From Oscillospiraceae bacterium (lineage in GTDB: Bacteria; Bacillota; Clostridia; Oscillospirales; CAG-272): a stretch of DNA of 64,000 nucleotides. The first letter of the stretch is position 1; each line of letters begins with the position of its first letter. Under the pieces are notes generated by a model, which was not told the DNA's origin, did not search any database, and saw only the letters and a program-made list of their open reading frames with translations. A program made the translations under genes and the position numbers. The stretch covers positions 1 to 64,000 of the forward strand of contig SVTR01000010.1 of assembly GCA_015063685.1 (NCBI GenBank), read 5' to 3'. Positions 143 to 25,786 of the stretch are shown here, piece after piece.

Positions 143-604
143 ATGAGCATAAATGACGTAAATAGTTTATCACATACGAAGTGGAATTGCAAGTACCATA
201 TTGTATTTGCCCCGAAATATCGGCGGAAAGTATTTTATTATGAAAAACGAGAAGCGATAGGGAAAATATTAAGGCAATTATGTGAATGGAAAGGTGTACG
301 GATCATAGAAGCAGAAGTGTGTCCCGACCATATACATATGCTGGTAGAAATACCGCCCAAAATTTCTGTATCGAGTTTCATGGGATACTTGAAGGGTAAA
401 AGCAGCACGATGCTGTATGAGCAATTCGGCGAATTGAAATATAAGTACAGGAATCGAGAATTTTGGTGCAAGGGATACTACGTGGATACGGTAGGAAAGA
501 ATGAGAGCCGAATTGCGGAGTATATTGCCAATCAACTTAAAGAAGATATGTTAGGCGAACAGTTAACGATCAGCGAACCTGGCCCGTTCACGGGCGGCAA
601 GTAA
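143..604 (+). CDS. tnpA: IS200/IS605-family transposase TnpA (Y1 HUH)
   Basis: This 153-residue protein has the usual length of an IS200 TnpA. It catalyses single-strand cut-and-paste through a phosphotyrosine link. The HUH metal motif is visible as HIHML near residues 63-67, preceded by CPD. The C-terminal helix has the tyrosine pattern of the family (GYYVDTVGKNESRIAEYI, about residues 111-128). The start has a strong AAAGGAGG site at 127-133. No companion tnpB is present, as in IS200 sensu stricto. The frame is intact, so the element may still be active. Confidence 0.93.
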   Translation: MSINDVNSLSHTKWNCKYHIVFAPKYRRKVFYYEKREAIGKILRQLCEWKGVRIIEAEVCPDHIHMLVEIPPKISVSSFMGYLKGKSSTMLYEQFGELKYKYRNREFWCKGYYVDTVGKNESRIAEYIANQLKEDMLGEQLTISEPGPFTGGK

Positions 605-4880: not shown

Positions 4881-5084
4881 ATTCGTCATATAAATTGTTG
4901 TTTAGCGGGCAGTGCCCGCGGCCATCGCTCGGGGTAGTGCATCCTGTGCTTACCACATCCCGCGATGGGCGATTCGTCATATAAATTGTTGTTTACCGGC
5001 CGTGCCGGCTGCCATTGCTCGGGGATGTTTAACCCATGCAGGCCGCATACCGCGATGGGCGATATAACGGTAAATTGTTGTTTA
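4881..5084 (-). repeat. 90-bp hairpin repeat, locus 1, left array (minus orientation)
   Basis: Three copies of the core TAAATTGTTGTTTA lie at 4891-4904, 4982-4995 and 5071-5084, 91 and 89 bp apart. Each interval holds a GC-rich hairpin next to the core whose arms differ but still pair (for example GCGGGC/GCCCGC and CCGGC/GCCGG around a CAC-G/T loop), then a GCTCGGGGATG-like segment and a CGCGATGGGCGAT segment. The array lies on the 5' side of the GH78 gene. Confidence 0.8.
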
Positions 5085-5106
5085 TGGGCGTTTACTGACC
5101 AACGCG

Positions 5107-5233
5107 GTCATCCTGAGCAAGGCCGCTGGCCGCGCCGAAGGATCTCTTTATACCTGTAAAAAACCATTGTCATAAAAAGGTTTTGCTTCCTGTGGGATCC
5201 TTCGACTCGGGCATCGCCCTCGCTCAGGATGAC
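5107..5233. repeat. Central inverted-repeat element of locus 1 (MITE-like)
   Basis: The 40-bp ends are imperfect inverted repeats: both begin with GTCATCCTGAGC when read inward and both contain CGAAGGATC. The middle is AT-rich and has no gene. It sits between two opposed arrays of the 90-bp repeat. No transposase is encoded. Confidence 0.65.
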
Positions 5234-5259
5234 TGTTTCAAGGCGGGGCACAACAACGC

Positions 5260-5361
5260 TAAACAACAATTTATCTGCCTAATCGCCCATCGCGGTATGC
5301 GGCCTGCATGGGCTGAACATCCCCGAGCTTTGGCTGCCGCACGGCGGCAAACAACAATTTA
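5260..5361 (+). repeat. 90-bp hairpin repeat, locus 1, right array (plus orientation)
   Basis: Core AAACAACAATTTA occurs at 5261-5273 and 5349-5361 (88 bp apart). Between them are the CGCCCATCGCG segment, a GAACATCCCCGAGC segment and a GCCGC-ACG-GCGGC hairpin. The unit is the reverse complement of those in the left array, so the locus as a whole is a large palindrome. Confidence 0.8.
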
Positions 5362-5458
5362 CCGTTTTCAATCTAATCATACTATACCATATTTTCCCGG
5401 GAATTGCAAGTGGCGCAGACACTTAGAAGCACATTTTTTGAAAATTTTGGCAAGGCAC

Positions 5459-5487
5459 TTTACAAAATCTCATGCTTGTGCTATAAT
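5459..5487 (+). promoter_or_regulatory. Promoter of the DUF6809-like gene and its leader (copy 1)
   Basis: TTTACA (5459-5464) and TATAAT (5482-5487) have 17-bp spacing. The predicted start coincides with the first base of the leader P1 helix. The second DUF6809-like locus has the identical TTTACA-N17-TATAAT arrangement. Confidence 0.75.
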
Positions 5488-5493
5488 GAAAGC

Positions 5494-5671
5494 ACCACAC
5501 AAAACTGAATACATGTATGCCTCAAACCGAAGTGGGTATTTTTACTATTGGTAAAAATGCTGACTTCCCTTTTCTCACTTCTGTTTGGGCGTGGAATCGG
5601 TTTTGTGTGGTAGCAAGATGAAGTCAAGCATTTTTCGGTGCGTGGCTTCGGCTGCGCACTTTTTATTTTTT
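5494..5671 (+). ncRNA. Structured 5' leader with terminator (copy 1), upstream of DUF6809-like gene
   Basis: P1 is a perfect 12-bp helix, ACCACACAAAAC at 5494-5505 with 5600-5611. Inside it, hairpin A pairs 5538-5545 with 5551-5558, and an outer stem pairs 5524-5534 with 5576-5586. The 3' half of hairpin A (5553-5566) can instead pair with 5621-5635, beyond P1, giving a pseudoknot; one base bulges. The hairpin at 5638-5659 has a cUUCGg loop and a T run at 5660-5671, the form of an intrinsic terminator, and it runs straight into the AGGAGG site. The copy at 25621-25781 keeps these elements with different helix sequences. This suggests a transcription-attenuation switch; the ligand or signal is unknown. 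Confidence 0.7.
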
Positions 5672-5684
5672 AGGAGGAAACGTC

Positions 5685-5948
5685 ATGAAAGACACGCTGA
5701 AAGATCTATGGTACGGAAACGTCGCGCCTCAAAGCAACGAGCATATCCACGCCGAGGAAATCAAGGAGCTTGCCGCGTATCTGGAAAAGCACCGCGCGGG
5801 TATCAACAACAGTCTGGACGGCGCCGGCAAGGAAAGCCTCCAAAAGCTGGCGGACTGCTACGATGAGATCTTGCTGTTGGAAAACGAAAACGCTTTTGCC
5901 CAGGGCTTTTCTTTGGCGGTCAGGATCCTCCTGGAGTCCCAAGCGTGA
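5685..5948 (+). CDS. Small DUF6809-like protein, copy 1
   Basis: The 87-residue protein is predicted to be all-helical and cytoplasmic, without signal or membrane segments. It fits the pattern I associate with DUF6809 proteins of Clostridia: an N-terminal LKDLWYGN, a central LxKLADCYDEILLLE and a C-terminal NAFAQGFSLAVRILLE. A paralogue at 25335-25601 shares the C-terminal half almost residue for residue. Function is unknown. The start has a TAGGAGGA site placed directly after the T run of a terminator-like hairpin. It is a single-gene unit, convergent with lysC. Confidence 0.85.
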   Translation: MKDTLKDLWYGNVAPQSNEHIHAEEIKELAAYLEKHRAGINNSLDGAGKESLQKLADCYDEILLLENENAFAQGFSLAVRILLESQA

Positions 5949-13207: not shown

Positions 13208-13828
13208 ATGTCCGATATCAACTATACCGCCCGCGCGGCAGAGAACAGACAGAGATTCATTGATATTTTCAAGTCCAAGATCACCCGTGAGGGCAGCGAA
13301 AAGCTGCTGGCCTTCCTGACCTCCGACGGCTGTGATTTCTTTACCGCCCCCGCATCTACCCGTTACCATGGCAACTATGAGGGCGGTCTCTGCGAGCATA
13401 GCCTTAACGTGTACGACGCGCTGGTGGATATTCTGGCCCGTCCCCGTGTCCGCGATTTGTACGGCATCAGCTACTCCGACGAGAGCATTGCCATTGCCGC
13501 TCTGCTTCACGATCTGTGCAAGGTGAACTTTTACAAGGTTTCCACCCGCAACGTGAAAAACGAGCAGGGAAGATGGGAGGCCGTGCCCTTCTACACCATT
13601 GAGGACAATCTGCCCTACGGCCATGGCGAGAAGTCGGTTTACATCGTGTCGGGCTACATGCGGCTGACCCGCGACGAGGCCTTTGCCATCCGTTATCATA
13701 TGGGCTTCTCGGGCCCCGAGGATCCCGGCAACGTGGGCAAGGCGCTGGAGATGTTCCCCTTAGCGTGGGCGCTCTGCGTGGCGGATATGGAAGCGGCTTA
13801 CTTCATGGAGGGAAGCCCCAAGAAGTGA
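13208..13828 (+). CDS. HD-domain phosphohydrolase
   Basis: The 206-residue soluble protein has the HD metal motif set: EGGLCEHSLNVY (first His) and AALLHDLCKV (His-Asp), followed by HGEKS and the later histidine and aspartate positions (IRYHMGF, LCVADMEAA). These residues bind two metals and hydrolyse phosphate esters or nucleotides. It most resembles the HD domain of YhaM-type 3'-5' exonucleases but lacks an OB-fold domain. It is probably co-transcribed with the MATE gene. Substrate is unknown. Confidence 0.88.
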   Translation: MSDINYTARAAENRQRFIDIFKSKITREGSEKLLAFLTSDGCDFFTAPASTRYHGNYEGGLCEHSLNVYDALVDILARPRVRDLYGISYSDESIAIAALLHDLCKVNFYKVSTRNVKNEQGRWEAVPFYTIEDNLPYGHGEKSVYIVSGYMRLTRDEAFAIRYHMGFSGPEDPGNVGKALEMFPLAWALCVADMEAAYFMEGSPKK

Positions 13829-13965
13829 GATACTCGCTTCGCTCGTGTGAAATTCGCCTGCGGCGAGTGAAATTTTCGCTTCGCAAAAGTGAAATTCGCA
13901 AGCCGTTGGCTTGCGAGTGAAGGAAGGTTTTGCTTTGCAAAACCAATTGATTTAAAGTAGGAGGA
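13829..13965 (+). repeat. Array of short hairpins joined by GTGAAATT
   Basis: Directly after the stop codon of the HD gene come four or five units, each a constant GTGAAA(TT) followed by a different small palindrome, e.g. TCGC-ctgc-GGCGA, TTTTCGC-ttc-GCAAAA, TCGCAAGCC-gtt-GGCTTGCGA and GGTTTTGC-ttt-GCAAAACC. Stems differ in sequence but stay paired. It ends just before the next ribosome binding site. Confidence 0.75.
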
Positions 13966-25334: not shown

Positions 25335-25601
25335 TCAGGTATTCAGCGCCTCGGTAACCAGCCTTGTTGCCAGAGAAAAGCCTTGAGCGAAGGCGTTTTC
25401 ACACTCTGTGAGTAAAAGCTCGTCGTAGCAATCCTTGTACTTTTGCAAAATCTCTTTGTCGTGATCATCTAATTTTTTCGATAGATCGGAAAAATGCTTG
25501 TCGAGATATTCGGATAGCCTTTTTTCTCCTGCGGCATCGTCAGAATCGTGATCCGCAAGTGCTGTTTGGATGTACCAAAGCTCGGTCAATGCTTTTTTCA
25601 T
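25335..25601 (-). CDS. Small DUF6809-like protein, copy 2
   Basis: The 88-residue paralogue of the protein at 5685-5948 shares the N-terminal LTELWY, the central LQKYKDCYDELLLTE and the C-terminal ENAFAQGFSLATRLVTEAL. The N-terminal middle (about residues 15-45) is more variable and acidic. It is helical with no signal or membrane segment; function is unknown. The start at 25601 has an ACGGAGGA site just after the leader terminator. The frame is open upstream through the leader, but the leader is better explained as RNA because copy 1 is not open in that frame. Confidence 0.85.
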   Translation of the reverse strand: MKKALTELWYIQTALADHDSDDAAGEKRLSEYLDKHFSDLSKKLDDHDKEILQKYKDCYDELLLTECENAFAQGFSLATRLVTEALNT

Positions 25602-25620
25602 CGTTGATTCCTCCGTATAT

Positions 25621-25781
25621 AAAAAGTGCGCAGCCGAAGCCACGCACCGAAAAATGTATGGCTCCAAATGCTGCCACGCAATCTTCATATATGCAAACTG
25701 CAAAAGTATACGAATAAGAGCATACATTTTTACCAAAGTAAAAATGTACACCTTCACAGTCTGCTATTCGATTACGTGGCA
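25621..25781 (-). ncRNA. Structured 5' leader with terminator (copy 2), upstream of DUF6809-like gene
   Basis: Read on the minus strand, P1 pairs TGCCACGTAATC (25781-25770) with 25683-25672: 12 bp with one G-T pair, in a sequence quite different from copy 1. Hairpin A pairs 25748-25738 with 25733-25723 (11 bp). The 3' half of A can instead pair with 25664-25649, outside P1, again with one bulged base. The terminator hairpin (25647-25626) is identical to copy 1, including the UUCG loop, with a T run at 25625-25621. P1 encloses 86 nt here and 94 nt in copy 1. The RNA class was not recognised. Confidence 0.7.
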
Positions 25782-25786
25782 CTTTG

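Follow-up and report, generated by a model that had tools for sequence, protein, structure and literature searches.

The 64,000-nt stretch of DNA analysed here (the window) contains two copies of an unnamed candidate RNA switch, each arranged in the order promoter, leader and gene (Table 1). The first copy has the clean promoter, the perfect 12-bp P1 helix and the UUCG-capped terminator claimed in the initial annotation, and this intrinsic terminator is located between the promoter and the start codon. The strand 5494-5505 (ACCACACAAAAC) and its partner 5600-5611 are exact reverse complements, and P1 extends inward to 5508/5597, giving 15 bp including the inner pairs. Upstream of two leaders of the source genome, similar repeats (CATCGCGGTATG..., ...AACAACAATTTAC...) were seen at window 5000-5380 and at L003 1241-1360, and these look like an interspersed repeat of that genome.

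Table 1. Positions of the leader elements, genes and other features in the window
Feature	Position	Strand	Remarks
ORF	143-604	+	reads like an IS200-type transposase
Promoter	5459-5487	+	TTTACA-17-TATAAT, TG preceding the -10 (extended -10); 11/12 consensus matches
P1 5' strand	5494-5508	+	at the inferred transcript 5' end; MFE fold, covariation
AAUA at P1/P2 junction	5508-5511	+	conserved; NAATA in 145/198 copies
P2 5' strand	5519-5534	+	MFE fold, covariation
Hairpin A (P3)	5538-5558	+	5538-5545 with 5551-5558; contains part of strand b
GGUAAAA motif	5550-5556	+	within hairpin A
Strand b (pseudoknot 5' strand)	5553-5567	+	partner 5620-5635
P2 3' strand	5576-5590	+	MFE fold
P1 3' strand	5597-5611	+	MFE fold
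Strand d	5620-5635	+	partner either b (pseudoknot) or e (antiterminator, 5637-5649)
Strand e (antiterminator 3' strand)	5637-5649	+	overlaps terminator 5' arm 5638-5646
Terminator	hairpin 5638-5659 (5637-5660 with one more pair), T run 5660-5671	+	9-10 bp, UUCG loop
Shine-Dalgarno AGGAGG	5672-5677	+	T run of the terminator ends there
DUF6809 gene	5685-5948	+	87 aa; Pfam score 63 bits (cut-off 27)
Gut-1 RNA (RF01706)	13823-13900	+	50.9 bits, threshold 50; orphan gut RNA
Second DUF6809 gene	25335-25601	-	88 aa; behind the second leader
Second full leader copy	25620-25782	-	150.8 bits

The segment 5490-5634 folds at -56.2 kcal/mol compared with a dinucleotide-shuffled mean of -30.7 (z -7.5), and the full leader, 5490-5684, reaches a z of -6.4 against shuffles. 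Hairpin A and P2 are mutually compatible in the predicted fold of this copy. The 3' arm of hairpin A had been proposed to pair instead with 5621-5635, and we found this helix as 5553-5567 with 5620-5635, a 15-bp pseudoknot with a single bulged A at 5627. Of the two exclusive states envisaged in the initial annotation, the pseudoknot stands and covaries among homologues, but an antiterminator formed by 5620-5632 with 5637-5649 had been overlooked. RNAfold predicts this antiterminator and prefers it over the terminator in the full leader. But for the antiterminator, there would be no route from the pseudoknot to the terminator. Since the linker from P1 to strand d is only about 7 nt, P1-P2 must bend if P1 and the full pseudoknot coexist. 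A telomerase-type U.A-U triplex in the pseudoknot was rejected on strand polarity, as it is the 5' strand that contains the A tract.

A portable cassette in gut Clostridia

When we searched the source genome with the leader by BLAST, seven copies were found. Seventeen copies were then aligned (A1) and built into a covariance model (R1), which recognizes 9-10 copies in the source genome, including the two in the window. Positive genomes numbered at least 72 of 118 sampled from the family, at least 69 of 197 from the order and at least 78 of 291 from the class, all lower bounds from overlapping draws, owing to strict filters and a limited number of candidates scored per genome. In the phylum draw of 299 genomes, the source genome was the sole R1 match, with none beyond the class. 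Up to 13 copies were detected per genome. Three scans of Rfam 15 gave nothing near the gathering threshold, with a weak sub-threshold similarity to Phe_leader, and a known RNA family was rejected on this ground; the initial proposal of a candidate new RNA agrees with this result. The motifs of a 224-motif paper published in NAR in 2017 should reportedly be contained in Rfam. Our literature search found no paper on DUF6809 and no description of the leader RNA. The RNA family is real, conserved and previously unnamed, and would be a new family of a known kind, the attenuator.

Named records with a specific sub-pattern of the leader belong without exception to Clostridia that are uncultured or metagenome-assembled, for the most part from the ruminant gut, and two human-gut records labelled as phage also carry it. 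In one of these (MT835845.1, L230, labelled Bacteriophage sp.) plainly bacterial chromosomal genes (ClpB- and YicC-like ORFs) stand beside the leader, and in the other the leader adjoins a tyrosine-integrase-like ORF, these names having been assigned by reading the ORFs. Plasmids gave no leader match and IMG/VR viral contigs gave no match to one exact leader pattern. As phage labels were confined to two records, of which one is plainly chromosomal, a prophage or plasmid origin was rejected.

Every copy has a sigma-70-type promoter, P1, P2, b, d and terminator, usually with a Shine-Dalgarno sequence and a gene about 20 nt further on. The order is P1 5' strand, AAUA-type junction, P2 5' strand, hairpin A with GGUAAAA, b, P2 3' strand, P1 3' strand, d, e, UUCG, f and T run. 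The strands b, d and e have AAAAAUGCAUGCUCC-like, GGAGCnAUGCGUUUUU-like and GUGCGUGGCUUC-like sequences, respectively, and GGUAAAA and UUUUUCGG are conserved motifs. The start of the model lies exactly 4 nt past the -10 hexamer in 168 of 192 homologues; this fixed spacing indicates that promoter and RNA form one cassette and places P1 at or within a few nucleotides of the transcript 5' end. Within 45 nt of the terminator, 131 of 192 copies have a gene with a Shine-Dalgarno sequence, at a median distance of 20 nt, compared with 18 at a control position, and the orientation of the leader relative to the gene is fixed. An ORF of at least 30 aa starting within 110 nt is absent behind 18 of 198 copies, some of which run off the contig.

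Two variations on this arrangement were observed. First, class II leaders (L006, L007, L029, L031, L035 and others) are longer, about 205-215 nt, and have an extra early hairpin followed by its own U run, possibly a second attenuator; they mostly precede one family of small cysteine-rich proteins. Second, two to four complete promoter-leader units may stand about 200 bp apart in tandem ahead of one gene: three in L094, four in L143 and two in L096, L133, L195, L214 and L217, while in L095 and L097 a short ORF separates the units. Among the four units of L143 (380-1760, minus strand), units 1 and 4 resemble each other in sequence, as do units 2 and 3, giving two variants. As each unit has its own promoter, the last would decide, and upstream units would contribute only if all later ones are read through. 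Such arrays may give a steep rise in output once induced, or they may be no more than the outcome of duplication.

The 129 downstream proteins gave 55 Pfam families, the largest with only 10 members, and share no metabolic theme. They include 10 BspA-type LRR proteins, 9 DUF6809 proteins, several zinc ribbons and 4 AMP-binding enzymes; a lipobox-like N-terminus was seen in at least 22 proteins, and 52 are shorter than 100 aa. The initial description of the leader as lying ahead of a DUF6809-like gene is therefore correct here but incidental to the family, given the 9 of 129. Autoregulation specific to DUF6809 was rejected as well, because two of the seven DUF6809 genes in the source genome lack the leader that the other five carry, and most targets elsewhere are unrelated. 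The small cysteine-rich family (DITGIxLTPG...CxGNG...ECCCDECDY), found behind L006, L007, L029, L035, L183, L137, L161, L142, L221, L209 and L210, is absent from the Pfam matches and is probably metal-binding. Another recurrent family of about 77 aa (MNIKxELLKxYISDF...EIQKxIKN...IFEKYxID) follows L081, L198, L199, L202 and L218.

Covariation of mutually exclusive helices

We compared, in 198 distinct copies with strands located by motif position, the duplex energy of each strand with its cognate partner and with the strand of a different copy. Cognate pairing was better for P1 (-21.4 against -11.7 kcal/mol, z -43), P2 (-17.0 against -8.5, z -37.5), hairpin A (-11.0 against -7.6, z -24.4) and the terminator (-16.2 against -13.5, z -19). 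The same was true of the pseudoknot b:d (-15.0 against -11.8, 3.2 better, z -16.6) and the antiterminator (-14.6 against -13.1, z -9.5), while four control strand pairings in these copies showed no cognate advantage (z -1.2 to +0.9).

Alignment of 105 homologues gave a consistent picture. P1 is 97.5% paired, with changes on both sides in 9 of 11 pairs; all 8 pairs modelled for P2 covary, and the terminator is paired in 99.9% of cells. P1, P2, P3 and the terminator together show 472 both-side changes, compared with 133 +/- 9 after shuffling. The inner hairpin A of the initial annotation is present and covaries, but it is the least conserved helix, with 73-78% of its cells paired, whereas P1, the pseudoknot and the terminator all exceed 90%. 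For the pseudoknot, pairing reaches 91% and 123 cells are changed on both sides; shuffling gave 38 +/- 5 such cells and sliding no more than 26, permutation and sliding being the sole controls for kinship of the copies. Covariation in P1 and the pseudoknot, the property on which the initial proposal had been staked in advance, is thus present in both. The antiterminator, a conserved alternative helix sharing the terminator arm, has 15 both-side changes against 3.3 +/- 1.5 shuffled, and it covaries less strongly than the other helices, strand e being constrained by its second role in the terminator. Since pseudoknot and antiterminator were absent from the model that made the alignment, the alignment did not favour them.

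Distant copies retain both partners of d by compensation (for example GAGGGAA/UUCCUUC, GAAGUC/GACUUC, GAGGGAAC/GUUCCCUC). In the source genome, 6 of 9 copies have their best b:d match within themselves, which is what action in cis would predict; the own b:d scores of L005 and L105 are poor. Pairing in trans between copies through one common strand was rejected, since the copies differ and their own pairing is usually best. P1, P2, hairpin A, the pseudoknot, the terminator and the antiterminator exist, covary and exclude one another through shared strands.

The proposed switch and its signal

We suggest that the leader belongs to an undescribed family of cis-acting transcription attenuators, as a portable cassette with its own promoter that switches between pseudoknot and antiterminator, and we place the probability of this reading, judged from sequence, at about 0.85. 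Pairing and covariation support the initial idea of an attenuating leader with a pseudoknot next to the terminator, and the switching itself would proceed as follows. Transcription would start at P1, hairpin A and P2 would form first with strand b left in the apical loop, and P1 would close before strand d is synthesised. If b is available, it would capture d in the 15-bp pseudoknot; e, the terminator 5' arm, would then be free for f, and the polymerase would stop about 165-215 nt into the transcript, before the gene (OFF). If b is withheld, either by hairpin A or by a ligand or protein on the loop, d:e would form in place of the terminator and the gene would be transcribed (ON). The relay would thus consist of a:b with d:e in the ON state, and of P2, b:d and e:f in the OFF state.

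Strand d is common to the pseudoknot and the antiterminator, and e to the antiterminator and the terminator; in the predicted duplexes, strand a of hairpin A overlaps its own use in P2 in 182 of 198 copies. When helix energies were summed, with the pseudoknot counted as duplexes and not as a folded pseudoknot, 179 of 198 copies favoured the combination of pseudoknot and terminator over that of antiterminator and hairpin A. Because of this preference, and because b:d can form before e is made, OFF is expected to be the default state, and the signal would be an inducer that withholds b. We infer from the sequences that real termination would respond and change, and that the copies within a cell all answer to a single general signal.

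The P1-P2 domain, with its AAUA junction and GGUAAAA loop, might directly bind a small molecule or ion and thereby set the pseudoknot, making the leader a riboswitch. In line with this tentative reading, for which the candidate antiterminator proteins are not required, the domain is compact, conserved and fused with an expression platform, and its numerous copies in a genome keep the same few unpaired letters. However, strongly conserved unpaired positions are few for an aptamer, and the targets (lipoproteins, BspA LRR proteins, DUF6809, AMP-binding enzymes, zinc ribbons, small ORFs) have no common metabolic theme. Such heterogeneous targets fit a global regulator, and a protein common to all copies in a genome, an RNA-binding antiterminator or the opposite, might set the switch by binding the loop or P1; the conserved GGUAAAA and UUUUUCGG motifs are in line with this. 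Against this, the search yielded no candidate among Hfq, ANTAR, LoaP and CAT_RBD: Hfq is absent from the source genome and does not track the RNA, and ANTAR occurs in 7 of 12 leader-bearing genomes but is absent from the other 5, including the source genome. In the same 12 genomes, LoaP exceeds the cut-off in none, with one NusG-like match each, and CAT_RBD (BglG/SacY antitermination) is found in none. As far as the assemblies are complete, these four are excluded as an obligatory partner. We consider ligand and protein equally likely.

It is improbable that the cassette serves to make the terminated RNA of about 165 nt, as a structured small RNA working in trans, and that read-through is secondary. 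P1 sealing the 5' end, copies with no close ORF and tandem units with their own promoters are compatible with a functional short RNA, and the arrays keep this minority reading alive, but 131 of 192 copies are closely followed by a Shine-Dalgarno sequence and gene, b and d co-vary copy by copy, and the antiterminator covaries, which a pure small RNA would not need. More doubtful still is a repeat, mobile cassette or type III toxin-antitoxin RNA with no role in gene regulation. Copies are many, stand in tandem arrays and sometimes at contig ends, and one adjoins the integrase-like ORF; yet orientation to the gene is fixed, the switching helices covary, plasmids and viral contigs lack the exact pattern, phage-labelled records with the leader number only two, one being plainly chromosomal, and no ToxN/CptN/TenpN-type gene is among the downstream families listed. 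Least credible is a ribosome-stalling leader-peptide attenuator: the layout recalls the attenuators of amino-acid biosynthesis and there is the sub-threshold Phe_leader similarity, but a Shine-Dalgarno sequence with a start codon occurs inside 28% of leaders compared with 36 +/- 3% of shuffles.

Returning to the cis-acting attenuator, its widest formulation would be a class-wide, undescribed riboregulator of Clostridia, for which we see an even chance: promoter-attenuator cassettes that are portable, reach 13 detected copies per genome and stand in tandem arrays of as many as four, in which pseudoknot, antiterminator and terminator compete for shared strands, and one global signal, either a new riboswitch ligand or a new RNA-protein antitermination system, controls surface and accessory genes. 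The leader is an orphan, presumably regulatory RNA that abounds in the poorly cultured Clostridia of ruminant and human guts. Covariation supports the whole switch, expression platform included, and its portability is unusual. In each genome, surface proteins, lipoproteins and uncharacterised small proteins would make up a defined regulon.

Comparison with known systems

The Bacillus-type transcriptional form of the preQ1-I riboswitch has a 34-nt aptamer, a known ligand and queuosine genes as targets. It is similar in that a pseudoknot withholds the antiterminator strand and the terminator forms, which is the same OFF logic. In contrast, its sequence and size are unrelated, and the present leaders have P1 at the transcript 5' end, about 130 nt ahead of the switch, and no gene theme. 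T-box RNAs are likewise multi-copy antitermination leaders of Bacillota, but the Rfam scans gave no T-box match, the leader has no visible specifier loop or T-box sequence, and it does not target amino-acid genes. Type III toxin-antitoxin loci (ToxI-ToxN) also have a promoter, a pseudoknotted RNA, a terminator and a small gene in that order, whereas the leader RNA has no short tandem repeat units and its downstream proteins are mutually unrelated.

Gut-1 and other structured RNAs of Clostridia come from a survey of 104 candidates (PMC2864571). Gut-1 is, like the leader, an orphan structured RNA of gut bacteria, but its match in the window is separate and does not overlap with the leader. For the ZTP and fluoride riboswitches, full-length covariation models exist (PMC13273304). 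In these, as in the leader, a pseudoknot domain is joined to a terminator with one arm shared by an alternative helix, and covariation extends into the expression platform (PMC13273304). The leader has no Rfam match to them, and its pseudoknot would favour the terminator instead of opposing it.
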